A stretch of DNA of 49,739 bases from Candidatus Methylomirabilota bacterium. GTDB lineage: Bacteria > Methylomirabilota > Methylomirabilia > Methylomirabilales > 2-02-FULL-66-22. The notes under the pieces were generated by a model. That model did not search any database. It was not told the DNA's origin and was given only the letters and a program-made list of their open reading frames with translations. The stretch spans positions 7,154 to 56,892 of the forward strand of contig JAPLLC010000028.1 of the NCBI GenBank assembly GCA_026387775.1. The letters are read 5' to 3'. How positions within the stretch are numbered: the stretch's first letter is position 1; the number at the start of each line of letters is the position of its first letter. The translations under genes and the position numbers were made by a program. Shown here in pieces: positions 1,381-10,509 of the stretch.

Positions 1381-2487
1381 ATGGCTGACGCCGACACGAA
1401 TCCTCCACAGGATGAACTGGCCCGTGCGGAAGCTGCGCTCGCGGAGCTGGAGCGGAAGACCCGCGAGGCGCGTGCCCGCGTGCAGGCGTTGCGGGCACGG
1501 AAGCCGGTTGTCCGCGAGTCCCCGCCGCCGTATGTCAAGCCGCCAGCTCCCCCGACAGCGCAGACCGGCCTCACGCCGGACCGGATCCGCCTCTTCCGCC
1601 AGCTCTTCCGCGGCCGAGAGGATGTCTTCGCGCGTTTGTGGACCAATCCGAAGAAGCGGACTGCGGGATATGCGCCTGCCTGCGCCAACGAATGGGTCCG
1701 AGGCGTCTGCGAGAAGCCGCGGGTCAAATGTGGCGAGTGTCCGAACCAGGCGTTTCTCCCGGTGGACGACAAGGCCATTCAAGGACATCTCCAGGGTCAG
1801 CATGTCCTCGGGGTCTATCCTCTCCTGCGCGATGAGACCTGCTGGTTCCTGGCGGTCGACTTCGATGGAACGGGGTGGCGCGACGATGTGGCGGCCTTCG
1901 TCGAGACGTGCGTCAGCAGGGGGTGTCCGCCCGCCGTGGAGCGGTCGCGTTCCGGCGATGGGGCACATACTTGGTTCTTTTTCACCGCACCCGTGGCCGC
2001 CAGTCTCGCGCGAAATTTCGGCTCCTTCCTGCTCACCGAGACCATGGCCCGGCGGCATCAACTCAGCATGCGGTCCTACGACCGCCTCTTCCCCAACCAG
2101 GATACCTTGCCTCGCGGCGGGTTCGGGAACCTGATCGCCCTGCCTCTTCAGCCCGCGGCCACCGTGAAAGGCAACGCGCTCTTTGTCGACGCGACCTGGA
2201 CTCCATACCCCGATCAGTGGGCCACGCTGGCCTCGGTGCGCCGTCTGGAGCCGGCGTACGTGGAGTCGCTGGTCAAGGACGCCGCGCGACGGGATCAGAT
2301 CGTGGGCGTCCGGTCCGCCGGGCTCGACGACGAGGCAGAACACGCCGCCCCGTGGACCCGTCCGCCGTCCGGGACGCGCAAGACCTCAGTGATTCCTGGC
2401 CCGCTCCCTCCGGAGGTCCGGGCCGTCCTGGCACAGCGCCTCTTCGTCGCAAAGGCCGGCCTCCCCTCCCCGCTGCTCCCGCTCTGA
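1381..2487 (+). CDS. TOTE-type archaeo-eukaryotic primase domain protein, front half of a frameshifted gene
   Basis: The 368-residue product begins with a coiled-coil segment (residues 10-42). A four-cysteine cluster follows (C101, C110, C117, C120), then a primase-like core with the catalytic pair D160-F-D162 in LAVDFDG, a histidine motif GDGAHTWFFF (H196) and FGNLIALPLQ. This layout is that of the archaeo-eukaryotic primase domain found in proteins annotated as TOTE conflict systems, where it is fused to a superfamily 2 helicase. Here the frame stops at 2485-2487 just after residues AKAGLPSPLL. The helicase continues in the -1 frame from the same point, so the gene is split. From the family I infer that a short linker between primase and helicase was lost in a deletion. 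Assembly error or programmed frameshifting cannot be excluded. Confidence 0.8.
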   Translation: MADADTNPPQDELARAEAALAELERKTREARARVQALRARKPVVRESPPPYVKPPAPPTAQTGLTPDRIRLFRQLFRGREDVFARLWTNPKKRTAGYAPACANEWVRGVCEKPRVKCGECPNQAFLPVDDKAIQGHLQGQHVLGVYPLLRDETCWFLAVDFDGTGWRDDVAAFVETCVSRGCPPAVERSRSGDGAHTWFFFTAPVAASLARNFGSFLLTETMARRHQLSMRSYDRLFPNQDTLPRGGFGNLIALPLQPAATVKGNALFVDATWTPYPDQWATLASVRRLEPAYVESLVKDAARRDQIVGVRSAGLDDEAEHAAPWTRPPSGTRKTSVIPGPLPPEVRAVLAQRLFVAKAGLPSPLLPL

Positions 2488-2495
2488 CTCCCCGC

Positions 2496-3812
2496 GTGAT
2501 CGCCTGCGCCGAGGAGTTCCCCGAGCACCTCGCGTTGCCCCGAGGGTGTCGCCCCGATCTCGAGGCCCTCCTCCACCAGCATGGGGTGCGTCTCGCCATC
2601 GACGATCAGCGCACGGACGGCGACCCCCTCGACGTCCATTTCCGCGGAGAGCTGACCCCCCTCCAGGAAAACGCAGCCCAGGCCCTCCTCAAGCATGACA
2701 CCGGCGTGTTTGTCGGACCCCCCGGCATGGGGAAGACCGTGCTCGGTGTCTACCTGGCGGCCCAACGCCGATGCAGTACCCTGGTGCTCGTCCACCGGCG
2801 GCCCCTCCTGGATCAATGGAAAGTGCAGCTCGCCATGTTCCTCGGGATCGAGGATGCAGAGATCGGAGAGATCGGCCGCGGGAAGCAGAAGGCGACCGGG
2901 CGGCTCGACGTGGCCATGCTCCAGAGCGTCACCCGCAAGGACAGCGTGGACGATCGGGTGGCAGCCTACGGCCAAGTGATCGTCGACGAGTGTCACCATA
3001 TGCCCGCGGTGTCCTTCGAACGTGTGCTTTCCGAGGTGCGAGCCCGCTACATCGTCGGCCTCACGGCGACCCCTCAGCGGCGCGACGGGCATCATCCGAT
3101 CACCGAGATGCAACTCGGTCCGGTCCGGTACACGGCGAGGCAGACTGGGCCACGGTCCGGGAGACCGTTTGACACCCAGCTTATCATCCGGGAGACGCGG
3201 TTCCGGCTCGCTTCCGAGCAGAATATCCTCCCCATCCAGACCCTCTATCGGGAACTGGCGGCCGATCCAGCCCGCAACGACCTGATCCTCACCGATGTCA
3301 TCACCGCCATTGCCGAGGGCCGCTCTCCGATCCTCCTCACGGAGCGGAAAGACCACCTCACCTTCTTCGCTGATCACCTTCGCGGCTTCGTGAAGCACCT
3401 CGTCGTCCTCCAAGGCGGAAAGACCGAGAAGGAACGCCGGGCAAGCGGGACCACTCTCGCGGCAATTCCGGACGGCGAGGAACGACTGGTCCTCGCCACT
3501 GGACGTTACATCGGCGAGGGCTTCGACGACGCCCGCCTGGACACGCTCTTCCTGGCACTGCCCATCTCCTGGAAGGGGACGCTCGTTCAGTACACCGGCC
3601 GCCTGCACCGCCCGCATCCTCGGAAGTCGGTCGTCCGCATCTTCGATTACGTGGACCGTGCAGTGCCGATGCTTCTGAAGATGTTCGAGCGGCGCCTCCG
3701 CGCGTACCGCGCCATCGGGTATGAACAGGAGGTGATGGGCAAGTCCACTGGGGCACGGCGTGATGTCCGTCCCGATTCAGCGCCGCGGTTGTCCTTCCTG
3801 CAGGAGGACTAG
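2496..3812 (+). CDS. Superfamily 2 helicase, back half of the frameshifted TOTE-type gene
   Basis: The frame carries a complete helicase: Walker A GPPGMGKT, Walker B with DEAH-like box VIVDECHHMP, motif III GLTATPQRR, and motifs V/VI ending QYTGRLHRPHP. The protein ends SFLQED. The first usable start is GTG at 2496; a CTG at 2484 overlaps the stop of the primase half. The reading frame is open further upstream but is then a shadow of the primase gene. In intact relatives, primase and helicase are one polypeptide, so this piece is either translated by coupling or frameshifting, or is part of a pseudogene. The next gene starts 2 bp after its stop. The motifs are intact, which argues for recent breakage. 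Confidence 0.8.
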   Translation: MIACAEEFPEHLALPRGCRPDLEALLHQHGVRLAIDDQRTDGDPLDVHFRGELTPLQENAAQALLKHDTGVFVGPPGMGKTVLGVYLAAQRRCSTLVLVHRRPLLDQWKVQLAMFLGIEDAEIGEIGRGKQKATGRLDVAMLQSVTRKDSVDDRVAAYGQVIVDECHHMPAVSFERVLSEVRARYIVGLTATPQRRDGHHPITEMQLGPVRYTARQTGPRSGRPFDTQLIIRETRFRLASEQNILPIQTLYRELAADPARNDLILTDVITAIAEGRSPILLTERKDHLTFFADHLRGFVKHLVVLQGGKTEKERRASGTTLAAIPDGEERLVLATGRYIGEGFDDARLDTLFLALPISWKGTLVQYTGRLHRPHPRKSVVRIFDYVDRAVPMLLKMFERRLRAYRAIGYEQEVMGKSTGARRDVRPDSAPRLSFLQED

Positions 3813-3814
3813 GA

Positions 3815-4177
3815 ATGAGGCCTCGCAGTCCGCAGGGAAACAGAAGAGCGGGAGGGAAGACCGGTCTCTCGGCGGCCAAGCTCGATGCCCTCATCGAGGA
3901 GACGCTGGTGGATGCCTACGGCGACTCCGAGCAACGCACGGCTTTCTTCACAGTCCTGGAGGATTCGCTGGCCCTGCCCTTCACAACACAGGTTCTTGGC
4001 ATCGAGGTAACCGTCGAGCGCCTCGACCTCACCGCCGACGAACAGATTGTGGCTGTCTGCCGCCACGGCCAGGTAAGGCAACGCATCCCGATCCTGGACC
4101 TGCCGCTCCCCAGCCCACCACCGAAAGGATCTGACTGGCTCGCGGCCTACCGGCGCTGGGCGGTTGGGGCAACGTAG
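3815..4177 (+). CDS. Small CcbP-like (calcium-binding family) protein
   Basis: The gene encodes 120 residues and starts 2 bp after the helicase stop, so it is in the same operon. The core, with LEDSLALPFTTQVLG then a beta-rich stretch and PILDLPLPSPPP, resembles small proteins annotated as calcium-binding (CcbP-like) in bacteria. The first 20 residues are basic and probably flexible; the remainder is acidic. No membrane segment or signal peptide is present. Its position suggests it belongs functionally to the primase-helicase, but no role is established. Assignment rests on recalled sequence similarity only. Confidence 0.55.
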   Translation: MRPRSPQGNRRAGGKTGLSAAKLDALIEETLVDAYGDSEQRTAFFTVLEDSLALPFTTQVLGIEVTVERLDLTADEQIVAVCRHGQVRQRIPILDLPLPSPPPKGSDWLAAYRRWAVGAT

Positions 4178-4588
4178 GACACAACGATCACCGCTTTCCA
4201 CCTCCCACACCGCTGCTTGCGGGGGAATGCTCATGATCCACTCGCGCGACATTCCCGCCTTGCAAATCCCTCTGATTCGGTCCCTGTCCGAGTCCTTATC
4301 GATGGTCTCTCTTTCAACCGGTCAATACGCGCGGGTCGCAACCGTTCGGCGCGCCCCATTCTGGTCGACGGCAACGTTTGGCCAATGAAATCGCAGAAAC
4401 CGTACCGAAGAATAAGTACCGGAGACCTATTGGAAGTTACCCGTTGATATACCGAAAGGACGATGCCAATTCCTGGCGGTCGGTCCATCAGGTGGGAGAG
4501 GCCTGAAGTCGTCGTCGCCGTCGGGGCATCACGTGCGGATCATACTCCGGGTGCCCATGCAGATAGCCCCCGTCCTTGGGTTATGGCC
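4178..4588. other. Gene-free stretch
   Basis: No supportable coding region is seen on either strand. Short open frames here lack recognisable composition or start signals. The stretch ends at the IS-associated repeat at 4589. Confidence 0.4.
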
Positions 4589-4655
4589 CAGAAGTGAAAT
4601 CGGCCCCTCGCAGAATCCGGCACTTGCGGGCTAGGAGGTGTCCGGTACCTTCTTT
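4589..4655. repeat. 67-bp IS-associated direct repeat, copy 1
   Basis: This segment, beginning CAGAAGTGAAATCGGCC and ending GGTACCTTCTTT, recurs with a few mismatches at 6759-6825. There it is immediately followed by an IS3-family transposase fragment. The two copies are in the same orientation and bracket the split Fic gene and a miniature element. Confidence 0.8.
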
Positions 4656-4821
4656 ATGGAAGAAGCAACTTCCTCCATTAGAATGCTAAACGTGGCAACA
4701 CCCCCAATACACCCTATGGGACCCGCTCCTGGTGCAGGAGGCGAAACGCACAAGGAAATGAAAGAAGCAACGTATACATTAAGAGTATAGAAGCCGTCAG
4801 ATGTCTCTCGAATCAAGCATG

Positions 4822-4867
4822 GTGATAATAATTCACATATATTTATATGTGTGATAGAATATATCAC
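4822..4867. promoter_or_regulatory. Cluster of AT-rich palindromes upstream of the split Fic gene
   Basis: Three overlapping inverted repeats are visible: GTGA-N7-TCAC (4822-4836), CACATATA-TT-TATATGTG (4834-4851) and GTGATA-N5-TATCAC (4851-4867). The region is much more AT-rich than its surroundings and ends 65 bp before the Fic start, as expected for a repressor-controlled promoter. Confidence 0.5.
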
Positions 4868-4931
4868 GTGGTGAGTGTTTTTCACGATTGTTAGACTTAT
4901 TACCTGTGAACGTTTTTCTCGAATAAGTAAG

Positions 4932-5870
4932 ATGAGTGAATACTATTCGAAAAAGGTGAATGAATTTCGCGGAAAGAGTTTACCGGAATCTGCACAGCTC
5001 GCCGGCTATGCCGCACTCATCGAGAGATTTGACCTCCAGGTCCTGCTGCCCTCTAGGCTTAGCGCGATTGCCGAACGGCATCACCCGCAGTCGACAGAAG
5101 ACTGGCAGTTGTTCACGCCGCGGCACGCGCCCAAGAACACCCTGGCGGGGCAGATCCAATTTGCGCTGAAATGGGAGGGCGTGCAGCTTGGTGTGCTCAC
5201 CGCGCTCTTCCGCGCCGTGGCGGCCGAAGACATCGCCGCCATCATCCGCACGACGCCGACCGGCGCATACGCGCGACGCCTCTGGTTCCTCTACGAGTGG
5301 CTGACTGGTCAGGCTCTCCCCCTGCCTGCTCTTGGAAAAGTGCGCGCCGTGCCCGTGGTCGATCCGGAGCTCCAGTTTGCGTTGGCCGACGGCACAATGG
5401 TCACACGGCAGAAGGTCATCGACAATCTGCCCGGGACGGTCGCCTTCTGTCCGATGGTGCGCCGTACCGAGAAGCTGGACGATTATGCCAGGCGAGATCT
5501 CAGCCAGCGCGCCCGGGACATCGCCGGCACCACACATTCAGACGTCATCGCGAGGGCGGCCGCCTTCTTACTGATGAGCGATAGCAAGGCATCGTTCACC
5601 ATCGAGGGGGAACGCGCCCCAGCGCAACGCGTGGCCCGGTGGGGACAGGCCATCGGCGAGGCAGGATCGATCACCTTGACCCTGGCGGAGCTCGAGCGCC
5701 TGCAGAAGATCGTTGTGGGCGATGCGCGATTCGTTCGTCTCGGCTTGCGCGTCGAGGATGGTTTTGTTGGGACGCACGATCGTGCGACCCAGGAGCCGCT
5801 TCCTGAGCATATCAGTGCTCGCGCTCAAGACCTTCCCAACCTACTCGATGGCGTGATCATCCGGTGGTAG
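4932..5870 (+). CDS. Fic family protein, N-terminal part of a frameshifted gene
   Basis: Start is taken as the ATG at 4932 (MSEYYSKK), after a run of unlikely residues from further upstream; the product is 312 residues. It holds the N-terminal domain of a large Fic subgroup, including LYEWLTG and the inhibitory-helix motif KASFTIEGE near residue 225. The frame ends at 5868-5870, shortly after LPNLLDG, just before the catalytic Fic loop, which continues in another frame. I infer a small internal deletion of a few tens of bases, because relatives carry a linker between LLDG and the VAAAAVAFGF segment. Consequently the inhibitory segment and the catalytic loop are on separate reading frames. Confidence 0.78.
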   Translation: MSEYYSKKVNEFRGKSLPESAQLAGYAALIERFDLQVLLPSRLSAIAERHHPQSTEDWQLFTPRHAPKNTLAGQIQFALKWEGVQLGVLTALFRAVAAEDIAAIIRTTPTGAYARRLWFLYEWLTGQALPLPALGKVRAVPVVDPELQFALADGTMVTRQKVIDNLPGTVAFCPMVRRTEKLDDYARRDLSQRARDIAGTTHSDVIARAAAFLLMSDSKASFTIEGERAPAQRVARWGQAIGEAGSITLTLAELERLQKIVVGDARFVRLGLRVEDGFVGTHDRATQEPLPEHISARAQDLPNLLDGVIIRW

Positions 5871-6439
5871 CGGCGGCGGCCGTTGCCTTTGGCTTCGTCT
5901 ACATCCACCCGTTTGAAGACGGCAACGGGCGCTTGCATCGTTGGCTCATTCACCATGTGCTGGCACGCGCCGGCTTCAATCCTGCTGGATTGGTATTCCC
6001 GGTCAGCGCAGCGATCCTGCGGCAAGTGGAAGAGTATCGGCGAGTACTGGAGTCCTATTCTCGGCCGCTGTTGAATCTGATCGAGTGGCGTCCGACCACC
6101 GCAGGGAATGTGGAAGTTCTGAACGAGACCGCGGACTTCTACCGGTATTTCGACGCGACGAGGCACGCCGAGTATCTCTACGAATGTGTCGATCAGACGG
6201 TGCAGCACGACCTCGTGGAAGAGGTGCGGTTCCTCCGCGCCTATGATGCCTTTACCGCACGAGTTGAAACGCTGGTGGATATGCCGCAGGCGAAGGTCGA
6301 ACTGCTCTGGCGGTTCTTGCACCTGAACCAGGGGAAGCTCTCGACGAGGGCCAGGACAGGGGAGTTCGCCGCTCTTAATGAGACGGAGGTCGGGCAAGTC
6401 GAACAGTTCTACAGACAGGCCTGGGAGGGGTTGATCTGA
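5864..6439 (+). CDS. Fic family protein, catalytic C-terminal part of a frameshifted gene
   Basis: The frame opens with GTG at 5864, overlapping the stop of the N-terminal part by 7 bp, so coupled translation is conceivable. Residues 1-30 contain the Fic loop HPFEDGNGRLHR with intact catalytic histidine, followed by WLIHHVLA. The C-terminal 150 residues are helical and match the tail of the same Fic subgroup. Total of the two parts is about 500 residues, normal for the family less the lost linker. If translated alone, this fragment would carry the Fic loop without the inhibitory helix. More likely the gene is decaying. Confidence 0.75.
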   Translation: MVAAAAVAFGFVYIHPFEDGNGRLHRWLIHHVLARAGFNPAGLVFPVSAAILRQVEEYRRVLESYSRPLLNLIEWRPTTAGNVEVLNETADFYRYFDATRHAEYLYECVDQTVQHDLVEEVRFLRAYDAFTARVETLVDMPQAKVELLWRFLHLNQGKLSTRARTGEFAALNETEVGQVEQFYRQAWEGLI

Positions 6440-6498: not shown

Positions 6499-6756
6499 TT
6501 GGGGACCCGGCCAAGCAATTCACCTTACGGCTTTGGGGAGCCGTGCCCAGGCATCCACGGTGAGGGCGCCCTGCTTCCCCGGGCCGCGATGCGGGGGAGG
6601 ACGTCGGCGCGATCCCCATCCTCCTGGAAGATCAGCGACCGCACGATCCCCCGCACCATCACCTGCGGGAGAGTCTCTGGCGCATCGTGACGGGGCGGGC
6701 GGAGTATAGCGGAGTCGCGGAGAGCGCCACTTGCTTTACTTGGCAACGTCCCCCAT
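6499..6756. mobile_element. RAYT-derived miniature inverted-repeat element, copy 1
   Basis: About 258 bp, closely similar to 9008-9266. The right end reads CTTGGCAACGTCCCCCAT; the left end is slightly decayed (ATTGGGGACCCGGCCAAG). On the minus strand the interior reads VMVRGIVRSLIFQEDGDRAD, which matches the N-terminal region of REP-associated tyrosine (Y1) transposases. It therefore looks like a deletion derivative of such an element that kept both ends. Confidence 0.75.
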
Positions 6757-6758
6757 CA

Positions 6759-6825
6759 CAGAAGTGAAATCGGCCTCTCGCAGAATCCGGCACTTATGGG
6801 CTAAGAGGTGTCCGGTACCTTCTTT
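6759..6825. repeat. 67-bp IS-associated direct repeat, copy 2
   Basis: Second copy of the repeat at 4589-4655. It starts 2 bp after the miniature element and runs directly into the IS3 transposase fragment, so it probably derives from the left part of the same insertion sequence. Confidence 0.78.
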
Positions 6826-7097
6826 TGTTCAACCAGTATTGATCGAGCGCCTCTGGAAGAGCGTCAAGTATGAAGAAGTGTATCTGCATGGCTATGGCGC
6901 GATGGCTGAGGCCCAGCGCGGCCTGACCTGCTATTTTCCTTTCTATCGCCAGGGCCGCCCGCACACGGCGCTTGACGGCCAGACGCCGGACATGGACTAC
7001 TTTGCTCGGCGGCCCCAGCGTGAGACAGCGTAACGTGAACCCCGCAGAGCTTCACTTGGAGCGCCTCGCTCTCTGTCCAACTCCTTGGGGCCACCGC
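6826..7097 (+). pseudogene. IS3-family transposase OrfB C-terminal fragment and right end
   Basis: From about 6826 the plus frame reads IERLWKSVKYEEVYL, then PHTALDGQTPDMDYF, ending at the stop at 7031-7033. This is the end of the DDE integrase domain of IS3-family OrfB, including the last conserved glutamate region. The catalytic front part is absent. The sequence to about 7097 (TGTCCAACTCCTTGGGGCCA) looks like the right terminus of such an element. The insertion has replaced the 3' end of the leftward nuclease-like gene. Confidence 0.75.
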
Positions 7098-7909
7098 CCC
7101 TTTTGAATTGCACGTGCCTTTGGGTGTGGTTCGCCGCTTAACACGACGACCGTTGCATTCAATGGGACTCCCGATTCTCTCATGAGTTGATTCCAGTCGC
7201 TTTCTGTTTTAAAGCGATTGGTCTCATAAACAACGTACAAAAAGCGCTCCCAATCTTTGGAAGTGTACCCTCTGGTATCCGCAAGAAGCTGATCAGCAAT
7301 CACTCCAACATCTGCTTTTCGTGACAGGAATTTGTATTCGATTAGGGTCCTGAGAGACGGTATTCCTGTGTCAGGCTCAAAGTTCTTAATCTGCTTCGAA
7401 AGTGACGGCTTGTGCTTCAAATCAGGAAACACGCACTTCAGTATTGCTTCGATCCTGGAATGGACCTCCTTTTCATTCTGAGGCACTTCGGGGAAGACCG
7501 CCTTGTCAGTGATGACGTAGTGAACGTTCCTAATTATGTCGAGAAGGTCTTTAGTAACGGTCGTGCGCTTGTCGCTTGGCAACAGTCCTCTAAGTGCACT
7601 TGTATAGAGACGAATCCCTCCGAGTACTGGAGAATAGGGCTCGTCATTCGGATCTCGACCGGACTTGGAGAAGCCCTCGGATGATGTTTTTATCTCTGCA
7701 TACTTTGCATATACACCGTTCCGCAACTCGGGCATGCCCAGTGCCTCTAGCGCTGCTAGCAGTTGGATAAAGCACGCCTCGATATTCCAAGAGGGTTCAT
7801 CCCACGGGTCGCCTGTCATTGACCAGTCGATAAACTTGCTAACCGCGCGGGAGACCTGCTCCTCTAGGTTGGTGAGAACGGAGTCTATATCTACTGTTCG
7901 AGTTGGCAT
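7052..7909 (-). CDS. PD-(D/E)XK nuclease-like protein with IS-derived tail
   Basis: The 285-residue protein starts MPTRTVDIDS. The N-terminal half is helical and does not match a family I can name. The C-terminal half contains SLRTLIEYKFLSRKADVG (E-x-K core), then ADQLLADTRGYTSKDW and FLYVVYETNRF, the pattern of a restriction-endonuclease-like fold similar to DpnII/MboI-type defence nucleases. After about residue 272 the sequence WPQGVGQRARRSK is encoded by the end of the IS3 fragment, so the natural C-terminus has been replaced. Nucleic acid cleavage is inferred from the fold only. Its lower GC content and position between insertion scars point to horizontal acquisition. Confidence 0.6.
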   Translation of the reverse strand: MPTRTVDIDSVLTNLEEQVSRAVSKFIDWSMTGDPWDEPSWNIEACFIQLLAALEALGMPELRNGVYAKYAEIKTSSEGFSKSGRDPNDEPYSPVLGGIRLYTSALRGLLPSDKRTTVTKDLLDIIRNVHYVITDKAVFPEVPQNEKEVHSRIEAILKCVFPDLKHKPSLSKQIKNFEPDTGIPSLRTLIEYKFLSRKADVGVIADQLLADTRGYTSKDWERFLYVVYETNRFKTESDWNQLMRESGVPLNATVVVLSGEPHPKARAIQKGRWPQGVGQRARRSK

Positions 7910-8404
7910 GGCGTAGTGGATCTCGATTCCGGACAGAGGTGAAGACTAGGGGATTGGTGACATCCTTGTGGCCGAGGCGTTCCCAGGGGTCGCGAAAGCG
8001 GCGTGGGGGTGACAACGGTAGGGAAAGGATGAGCACAGGGACGTGGTGAATGCAGACGAGCTAGGCCGCGCGCACAAGCCTGATGTGGAGCACGATCACG
8101 AGCCGTCCCCATGTAGCCTCCTGCATTGGTCGTACTGGGGAGGTGCAATGAACTGGAGGCTACGCTACGCTTGACCAGGCATCGCTGTCAAGGGCGGGTT
8201 GATGCGGGAGGGAAGGGAACGGCGAGGAAGACAATAACGGCCAGCCAAACGCGCTGGTCGAGTTGGTCGAGATCGAGCGCTCGCTGATCCACTTGCAGCC
8301 ACCTCCACTAGCATGGCGAGCGGGTCGATCAGGATGCGAGTCATCGCCTTCGCGTCGCCTACTGGCTCAGATAAGAAATCGCCTTGCAACGCAAGGACCT
8401 CCAC
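7910..8404. other. Gene-free stretch of about 500 bp
   Basis: No gene can be supported. A minus-strand frame at 8165-8404 gives a 79-residue alanine/arginine-rich product with no recognised domain and no clear ribosome site; I leave it out. The region may hold the remains of genes lost during element insertion. Confidence 0.35.
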
Positions 8405-8974
8405 CTACCACGGCAGTGCTATGCACTTCGAGGGCGGACAGATAGCGAATGCAGCCGCGAATAATACCGCAAGGGCGAAAAAGACGAAGGGTAGATGTTC
8501 AAACCGTCCTATCCAACAAGCAGTCCTTTCCCCCATCTTCTTCTGTGCAGACAACTCAGGTTCTTGGTCGAGCAAGATCCTGTGCGCATCTTTGAGCAGT
8601 CCCATTAGCCCTTCCTCATTTTCTGGGTATTTGAACCTCAGTGCCCCCCATCCAATGACCTTCATTTGTGCGTGGAGCATCTCTGCCTGCATCAGCTTCG
8701 ATAACAGCAACCGCACGCCAATCCCAAAGAAGACGGCAAGTACAAAGAATCCGATTGGAATACCCAGCACCCATCCCGGTGCGTTCTTTAGATCCAGGAT
8801 ATAGTTGTACATCGGTGGCAAGCCGACAACCGCAGCGGCTGCCAAACCAACTATCCAAACGACCATGCTGTCTCGGTGTTGTTGTTGATTTCCTGTTGCC
8901 TTCTGCCCTTCCGTTACACCCCTCGCCATACTATCTATCATGTCTAGCGCTCTCTTGATCCTTGCCTCATCCAT
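8405..8974 (-). CDS. Hypothetical three-helix membrane protein
   Basis: Start is taken at the ATG at 8974 (MDEARIKRALD); the longer frame runs into the miniature element at 9008. The product has 189 residues. Hydrophobic segments are at about residues 37-57 (VVWIVGLAAAAVVGL), 68-92 (WVLGIPIGFFVLAVFF) and 162-182 (FVFFALAVLFAAAFAI), with a soluble segment of about 70 residues between the second and third. The first 35 residues are charged and glutamine-rich. I do not recognise a family. As a small membrane protein inside a toxin/defence-like cluster it could be an effector, but nothing in the sequence proves this. Confidence 0.55.
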   Translation of the reverse strand: MDEARIKRALDMIDSMARGVTEGQKATGNQQQHRDSMVVWIVGLAAAAVVGLPPMYNYILDLKNAPGWVLGIPIGFFVLAVFFGIGVRLLLSKLMQAEMLHAQMKVIGWGALRFKYPENEEGLMGLLKDAHRILLDQEPELSAQKKMGERTACWIGRFEHLPFVFFALAVLFAAAFAICPPSKCIALPW

Positions 8975-9007
8975 GACGTTGCCTCCGCTTTCCGGGTTCA
9001 GCCTTTT

Positions 9008-9266
9008 ATGGGGGACGTTGCCAAGCAATTCACGTTACGGCTTTGGGGAGCCGTGCCCAGGCATCCACGGTGAGGGCGCCCTGCTTCACCGGGCCGCGAG
9101 GCGGGGGAGGACGTCGGCGCGATCCCCATCCTCCTGGAAGATCAGCGACCGCACGATCCCCCGCACCATCCCCTGCGAGAGAGTCTCTGGCTCATCGCGG
9201 CGGGGCGGGCGGAGTATAGCGGAGTCGAGGAGAGCGTCACTTGTTTTACTTGGCAACGTCCCCCAT
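9008..9266. mobile_element. RAYT-derived miniature inverted-repeat element, copy 2
   Basis: 259 bp with perfect 18-bp terminal inverted repeats: ATGGGGGACGTTGCCAAG (9008-9025) and CTTGGCAACGTCCCCCAT (9249-9266). The minus strand retains transposase-like GMVRGIVRSLIFQEDGDRAD. It lies 4 bp downstream of the Fic gene at 9271 and just upstream of the membrane protein gene, so it occupies a narrow intergenic gap. Confidence 0.82.
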
Positions 9267-9270
9267 CATT

Positions 9271-10509
9271 CTAATATGCCCGGTCTCCCAGCGGATCGCC
9301 CCGCTCAGAGCCCCTTTCGCTCACACTGTTTTGTTCACGCCCTAGATCAGCTCTCACTGTTGGAGGCAGGAAACCAAGAATGATTTCCTTGCGTGCACGA
9401 TAACCTTTTGATGCCCTCTCGATTAACCCGGCTTCGCGCATTGCATTGAGGTCCCTGACGAGCGATTTTTGTGTGCGTCTCGCATACGCCTGGGACAGTC
9501 GAGGGCTTATGCCCGGGATGTCAGCTATAGACGTAGATCCAGTTCGTAGGGAAAGATCGAGCACAAGGTGTCGCCTTCGTACCTGGCTCGGGGACGTTTT
9601 GTTCTGGAACAATTCGTGGACGTAGTTCCGCCATGCGAGGTCCCACTGTTGCGCCCAAATCACATCAATTTGTTGCTTCAGTCCGTCGAGGAACCCACGT
9701 ACGGCATAGGAAACGAAGGAAACAACATCTCCCCCCTTTGCGCTGGCTCGGTCTAATTGCCGATAATATTCAGATCGGGTCAGGTTGTAGTGATTACTCA
9801 AGAGATGGGCGGAGGCGGCGGGAACCCCCGCTCCTATGAGAATCTGAAACTCCAGAAGCCGGGCTACCCGGCCATTGCCGTCGCCAAATGGGTGAATCCA
9901 GGCCAGGTACAGGTGGGCAATAATCGCCTTCAGGATGGCATAGACGATTCTCTTGTCTTCCGTGGGGGTGAAGTCACTTCCGTTCAACCATCTGACGAGT
10001 TCGTCCAGTAGGAACTCGCAGTCTTCGGCTGGTGCACCTCGGTAGCGCCCGACAACAACGGAGTGATGTCGCACTTCGCCGGGAATAACACCGTCTTCAA
10101 GAGCTAGGTCCTTCAAGACCGTGCGGTTCAACTCCCGAATGCTCTCCGAGGCAATGGAAGGCGTGCCTCCATGAGCCACGACCTGCAGGGTCACGTTGCA
10201 TCCTGCGATGACGTTGTCGATTTCCTTCGCCAGGTATTCGCGTGAGGGGGGGAGCTTAAGTTTTCCGTCCAGGTGATCGCGTACCTCCTGCTCTGAGAGC
10301 GTATTACCCTCGATCGCGGTGGTGGCAAGAGCCCCTTTCGCCAGGTAGATCTTGTACAGTCCCTCGGCAGTGGCTGGGCGAAGAGGCACCAGGGAAACAT
10401 GCTCACACTTGGACTGGCATTCCCCCAACATGAGCCACAAGTCCGGTGGGGAGTCTTTGAGATCGACCGAGAACTTTATCCACGGATGTGTCTGTTCGTA
10501 TGTCCTCAT
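9271..10509 (-). CDS. Fic family protein, intact
   Basis: The 412-residue protein is complete. The inhibitory-helix motif TTAIEGNTL is near residue 63, and the Fic loop HPFGDGNGRVAR is near residue 225, with H, the phosphate-binding G-x-G-N-G and R present. The C-terminal 120 residues (TSIADIPGISP, SLVRDLNAMREAGLIE) form a winged-helix-like domain that could bind DNA and mediate autoregulation, as in other class II Fic proteins. Expected activity is AMP transfer to protein hydroxyls, relieved from autoinhibition by oligomer change or autoAMPylation. An AT-rich upstream region with a good promoter lies at 10585-10613. It is unlike the two other Fic genes outside the catalytic motif. Confidence 0.9.
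   Translation of the reverse strand: MRTYEQTHPWIKFSVDLKDSPPDLWLMLGECQSKCEHVSLVPLRPATAEGLYKIYLAKGALATTAIEGNTLSEQEVRDHLDGKLKLPPSREYLAKEIDNVIAGCNVTLQVVAHGGTPSIASESIRELNRTVLKDLALEDGVIPGEVRHHSVVVGRYRGAPAEDCEFLLDELVRWLNGSDFTPTEDKRIVYAILKAIIAHLYLAWIHPFGDGNGRVARLLEFQILIGAGVPAASAHLLSNHYNLTRSEYYRQLDRASAKGGDVVSFVSYAVRGFLDGLKQQIDVIWAQQWDLAWRNYVHELFQNKTSPSQVRRRHLVLDLSLRTGSTSIADIPGISPRLSQAYARRTQKSLVRDLNAMREAGLIERASKGYRARKEIILGFLPPTVRADLGREQNSVSERGSERGDPLGDRAY

Follow-up and report, generated by a model that had tools for sequence, protein, structure and literature searches.

The window considered in this study, i.e., the whole stretch of 49,739 nucleotides analyzed from a Candidatus Methylomirabilota bacterium, carries on its plus strand a primase and a helicase in two different reading frames, followed by a small gene, and it raises the question of whether one enzyme has been broken or two subunits are encoded, and whether the small gene is part of the same system. 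The ORF map confirmed the layout given in an earlier note on this DNA, with the two halves in separate frames and the small gene 2 bp behind. In particular, the primase half (1381 to 2487, frame 1, 368 amino acids) presents an AEP-TOTE/CAPP-like PrimPol domain and ends with a TGA at 2485 to 2487, and the helicase half (2487 to 3812, frame 3, stop at 3810 to 3812) presents an XPB/UvsW-type SF2 helicase with an incomplete N-terminal domain, its homology starting at 2487 and a candidate restart GTG occurring at 2496. The small gene (3815 to 4177, plus strand, frame 2, 120 amino acids), which recurs behind primase-helicases and is called CcbP-like for the fold of its product, starts with an ATG located 2 bp past the helicase stop, and the sequence AGGAGG (3802 to 3807), 7 nt ahead of this ATG, is its likely ribosome-binding site. 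The primase half matches the Pfam family AEP-TOTE (PF22548) with an E value of 5.8e-95 and a score of 317.7 bits, far above the cut-off of 27, over positions 2 to 229 of the 230 of the profile, and the helicase half matches ResIII (PF04851, 2.5e-22). Both the primase gene and the CcbP-like gene occur as a single copy in the genome, a draft of 312 contigs.

When species genomes of bacteria and archaea were scanned, 80 homologous loci were retrieved from many phyla, 51 to 69% identical over the helicase. In almost all the homologues with both halves on the contig, primase and helicase form one open frame, and the co-occurrence of the halves is not due to chance, since both align to that frame. 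The distance from residue 366 of the primase to residue 1 of the helicase is about 78 nt in the homologues versus 8 nt in the window, where a segment of 24 amino acids (consensus NQIKRLAAFQNPEFYKKQSMRLST), present between the halves in the homologues, is absent. The alignment with full-length homologues, which the earlier note had proposed for sizing the missing linker, gives a loss of 24 residues and of 70 bp net; at the junction (2476 to 2487, reading ...LPSPLL / cc / ALTPRVIAC...), 72 nt are missing bar 2 nt, with the breakpoints inferred from the homologues. The supposition that a deletion broke the gene is borne out by the single frame of almost all homologues and by the 70 bp gone from the window. 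The "frame change at about 2484" holds as far as the frames are concerned, but 2484 corresponds to the stop of the primase half, which is reached solely owing to the deletion, and the event is a net loss rather than a point frameshift.

The sequence between the two domains that is conserved in the single-chain enzymes (RLAAFQNPEFYKKQ.MRLST) is missing from the window, together with each of the 12 near-invariant columns that the segment holds, i.e., those conserved in at least 95% of 58 full-length homologues. Outside the segment, the window retains 177 of the 178 columns conserved to the same extent, with one substitution, the median of the other homologues being two, and neither half contains a further stop. 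Because of these retained residues, the break would be either young or tolerated, and a long-standing decay was rejected.

The predicted structure of an intact homologue (L033, mean pLDDT of 81) allowed us to locate the lost segment, which corresponds to residues 362 to 385, where the model has two helices and one strand belonging to a folded domain, with lower confidence in this region (blocks of 62 to 85). From residue 338, the model aligns with archaeal XPB (6p4o, from its first residue, Z of 25.3) and with T4 UvsW (2oca, Z of 19.8). Since the segment lies within the XPB-like fold of the model, what the deletion takes out is a piece of the XPB-type N-terminal domain rather than a spacer or a loose linker.

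As for the relationship with known enzymes, the window primase belongs to the same family as the AEP-TOTE primase-helicases (PF22548, "TOTE conflict system"), and its locus has the same architecture of a primase with an XPB-like helicase as the single-chain homologues; the window copy differs in its two frames and in the absence of the 24 conserved residues. Residues 60 to 301 of the L033 model align with the Prim-Pol domain of the CRISPR-associated PrimPol (CAPP; 7nqd to 7nqf) with a Z of 24.6 (7nqf), which indicates a common fold; however, the primase is fused to a helicase in the homologues considered here, and the window primase scores 97.7 bits against the CAPP equivalog NF040561, whose cut-off is 200. 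Similarly, different from archaeal XPB, which has no primase ahead, the module features the small CcbP-like partner in the place of the Bax1 nuclease, and the window helicase reaches 70.8 bits (8.7e-20) against the XPB equivalog NF045503, far from its cut-off of 610. On these scores, the helicase half is best described as XPB-like and not as XPB.

The earlier note had also proposed that the two halves may now work as separate subunits. Such a functional fission, in which primase and helicase would reassemble, perhaps via the CcbP-like protein, with translation of the helicase starting at the GTG (2496) or reinitiating downstream of the TGA, agrees with the conserved positions kept, the lack of other stops, the intact CcbP-like gene, and the occurrence of that GTG in the helicase frame 8 nt past the TGA; moreover, the otherwise undamaged state of both halves is equally expected of a working split gene and is a counterpoint to decay. 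Nevertheless, the loss covers a near-invariant part of a folded domain, which is more than a joint, the GTG is not preceded in the sequence by a ribosome-binding site, and none of the homologues presents a like split with both halves intact, the other broken ones lacking more or carrying stops. The Fic gene behind the module (PADLOC PDC-S24) is also broken, being split into two frames (4875 to 5870 and 5864 to 6439) and, compared to intact plasmid homologues, shortened by about 34 bp (net) immediately ahead of the HPFxDGNGR motif. In light of the lost domain piece, the broken Fic gene, and the recurrence of broken enzyme copies, the proposal of separate subunits finds no support, and we judge it improbable. 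Intact homologues of the split Fic gene are common on plasmids.

Broken primase-helicases were found in a further nine loci, one of them from the window's genus (L118; the others are L019, L034, L041, L051, L073, L117, L183, and L188), with a genuine in-frame stop in L041, and damaged CcbP-like genes occur in L026, L107, L109, and L185. Modules of this kind would then have decayed several times independently, the window being one such case, and internal deletions seem to be a common decay route for the primase-helicase genes. In L183 (about 2930 to 3575), a primase-helicase remnant lacks approximately residues 243 to 774, and its ends abut in different frames.

It might also be that the 70 bp were dropped from the draft contig and that the organism carries an unbroken gene. 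The fragmentation of the assembly into 312 contigs, with an estimated contamination of 6%, the short net loss in the adjacent Fic gene, and the origin of several broken homologues from draft metagenome bins are in line with such an error. On the other hand, assemblers do not usually produce a net loss of this size where the junction shows no evident repeat, and a generally poor assembly is disfavored because several long genes of the window match their families end to end, as with phosphoenolpyruvate carboxylase (919 of 919 positions) and DctM (413 of 413). We regard an assembly error as rather unlikely; this estimate and that for a fission are judgements. A programmed frameshift rejoining the halves was rejected as extremely improbable: beneath the primase frame, the helicase frame stays open as far back as 1875, and a -1 slip there would fuse the halves, but inspection by eye showed no canonical heptamer (X XXY YYZ) ahead of 2485, the homologues need no frameshift, and the conserved segment would stay missing. 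Taken as a whole, since the adjacent Fic gene is frame-shifted too, broken copies recur elsewhere, and several long genes of the window are complete, the gene was probably split by a small deletion, with a recent inactivation favored over functional subunits.

Concerning the surroundings, two more Fic genes lie on the minus strand of the window, at 1 to 952 (DUF4172-Fic, extending past the window start) and at 9271 to 10509, flanking the module and bringing the Fic genes within 10.5 kb to three. An integrase core (rve_3) remnant and a gene with a DpnII/MboI-type nuclease domain are found side by side at 6731 to 7033 and 7052 to 7909. The first 11 kb of the window look like a mobile or defense island.

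The small protein was only partially recognizable as CcbP from its amino acid sequence, the match to PF11535 having an E value of 0.0018 and a score of 19.2 bits, below the cut-off of 21.5, and the recognition being confined to 35 to 40 residues near the N terminus, in the VDAxxxxE region. All 17 of its aligned relatives match PF11535 (E values up to 1, the best being 5.5e-9). Its predicted model (pLDDT of 87) superimposes on the CcbP of Anabaena (Alr1010, PF11535; 3urg/2k2v) over nearly the whole length (3urg, Z of 12.5, rmsd of 2.2, 102 residues), which points to a shared fold; the identity over this fold is 17%, and, different from CcbP, the genomic partner of the small protein is a DNA enzyme. 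Ca2+ binding may be considered a candidate property of the CcbP-like protein. Apart from CcbP, the structure comparison returned just SH3- and Tudor-like barrels, whose likeness (Z of 4.8 at best, under 5) was too weak to be used.

Whether the CcbP-like gene belongs with the enzyme was addressed by surveying how often it follows the homologues, as the earlier note had suggested. With the small protein as tblastn query, a CcbP-like gene (homologues about 46 to 66% identical) was located immediately after the helicase in 15 of the 73 loci whose downstream sequence spans 450 bp or more; the gene is absent downstream in the other 58, and in a single case (L079) it lies upstream of the primase-helicase. 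Homologues followed by the gene are thus frequent, contrary to the case of none that the earlier note had named as refuting its view. Of 14 pairs measured, 11 show an overlap of 1 to 14 nt between the two genes, often as ATGA, and the pairwise distances of the enzyme and of the CcbP-like protein correlate (Mantel r of 0.50, p of 0.0004, 13 sequences). The presence of the CcbP-like gene switches at least eight times on the enzyme tree, which implies that it was often gained or lost. Furthermore, profile searches of genome samples from the window's phylum (95), the Myxococcota, to which L020 belongs (329), and the Acidobacteria, to which L041 belongs (297), yielded 17 strong CcbP-like matches (about 90 bits or more, leaving out the weak match of G634 at 89 bits), of which 11 lie beside a primase-helicase, one at a contig edge, one near a primase-helicase remnant, and four elsewhere, where the 11 of 17 is biased upward by five source genomes of the profile being among the samples (6 of 11 with known context when these are left out) and by a profile built mostly from enzyme-linked copies, which favors that subfamily. 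CcbP-like genes without the enzyme were observed in G001, G080, G162, and G712 and on Rhodococcus plasmids. The partnership is not obligatory, because most testable loci lack the downstream gene and CcbP-like genes are at times found with no enzyme; at the same time, as far as gene context can tell, the CcbP-like gene appears to be a real, recurrent partner of the primase-helicase in distant bacteria.

On the Rhodococcus megaplasmids L143 and L144 (about 7950 to 9613), the CcbP-like gene overlaps the gene of a 448-amino-acid "helicase-associated" protein with weak XPB similarity, annotated in two pieces on one of the plasmids, and in L108 (about 3294 to 6368), it is convergent with an XPB-like helicase gene, next to a neighbor resembling by eye a Bax1/DUF790 nuclease. 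Eight plasmid records contain CcbP-like genes, and the two annotated regions examined showed no primase-helicase. No CcbP-like gene was found in phages, viral contigs gave two weak matches, and the exact 24-mer of the junction was not found in viral contigs.

A further gene recurs in this context. In seven loci (L017, L020, L021, L026, L036, L040, and L084), the CcbP-like gene is followed by a gene for a protein of about 380 amino acids, here called SEYQYYEF, which begins with MSEYQYYEFQAIDRPL, gave no significant Pfam or PADLOC match, and is also present in L106 and L152; a partial copy occurs in L151, close to genes of the SNF2-helicase and SWIM zinc-finger types. As a part of the window locus it was ruled out, since none was found in the window's genome. 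It could be argued that the CcbP-like and SEYQYYEF genes make up an independent small module and that the former lies behind the enzyme only on account of shared islands, in agreement with the co-occurrence of both genes without the enzyme in G001 and G118 and with the repeated switches on the enzyme tree. We consider this unlikely, though conceivable: the CcbP-like gene stands immediately downstream of the enzyme, with codons overlapping in most pairs and correlated divergence, and many enzyme-CcbP pairs, that of the window genome included, have no SEYQYYEF gene.

In about 20 loci (L081, L027, L082, L089, and others), the genes directly upstream of the primase-helicase, often overlapping, are instead AbiEi and AbiEii, a type IV toxin-antitoxin pair identified by matches to PF13338 and PF08843 on representatives; none was seen at the window locus. 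Of the 54 loci in which both flanks are available, CcbP alone occurs in 14, AbiE alone in 18, both in one, and neither in 21 (Fisher p of 0.009, relatedness being ignored), i.e., CcbP and AbiE largely alternate around the enzyme.

The notion that the CcbP-like gene is an unrecognized component gains from its being a recurrent, usually overlapping partner, and no model of PADLOC or NCBIfam matched the CcbP-like or the SEYQYYEF proteins. A pairing of CcbP with a primase or a helicase was not found described in the open literature covered, to which the paper defining TOTE did not belong, and nothing relevant on AbiEii with a primase or XPB emerged from the literature search. The primase-helicase and the CcbP fold are already known, and their pairing can provisionally be called unrecognized.

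The explanation that we hold, on balance, to be a reasonably probable one is that of a two-gene module, made up of a primase-helicase (a CAPP-like PrimPol fused to an XPB/UvsW-type SF2 helicase) and of a CcbP-fold protein encoded right behind it, whose joined enzyme would be disabled in the window by the 70-bp deletion, through the removal of a part of the N-terminal domain and the shift of frame. The intact enzyme may open foreign or damaged DNA and prime synthesis on it, and the CcbP-like protein could act as a subunit or regulator, as an adaptor or metal-sensing part on the helicase or its N-terminal domain, with AbiE possibly serving as an alternative control module. A defense role of the module may be supposed from the Pfam family name, the AbiE neighbors, and the island-like surroundings. 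More speculatively, and with clearly less confidence, it is possible to hypothesize a widespread PrimPol-XPB conflict enzyme to which the CcbP-like protein is dedicated as a metal-responsive regulatory subunit, in place of the AbiEi/AbiEii of sister loci; such an enzyme would be the common core of alternative control modules.

The split as such adds little beyond showing that these modules decay. The family is catalogued, and no functional characterization of it was found in the literature search; the near-invariant segment flags an element of the XPB-type N-terminal domain that looks important, and the recurring, usually overlapping small partner provides a concrete candidate for a two-protein complex. 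The alternation of CcbP and AbiE, in turn, suggests that control modules can be exchanged around a common enzyme core.
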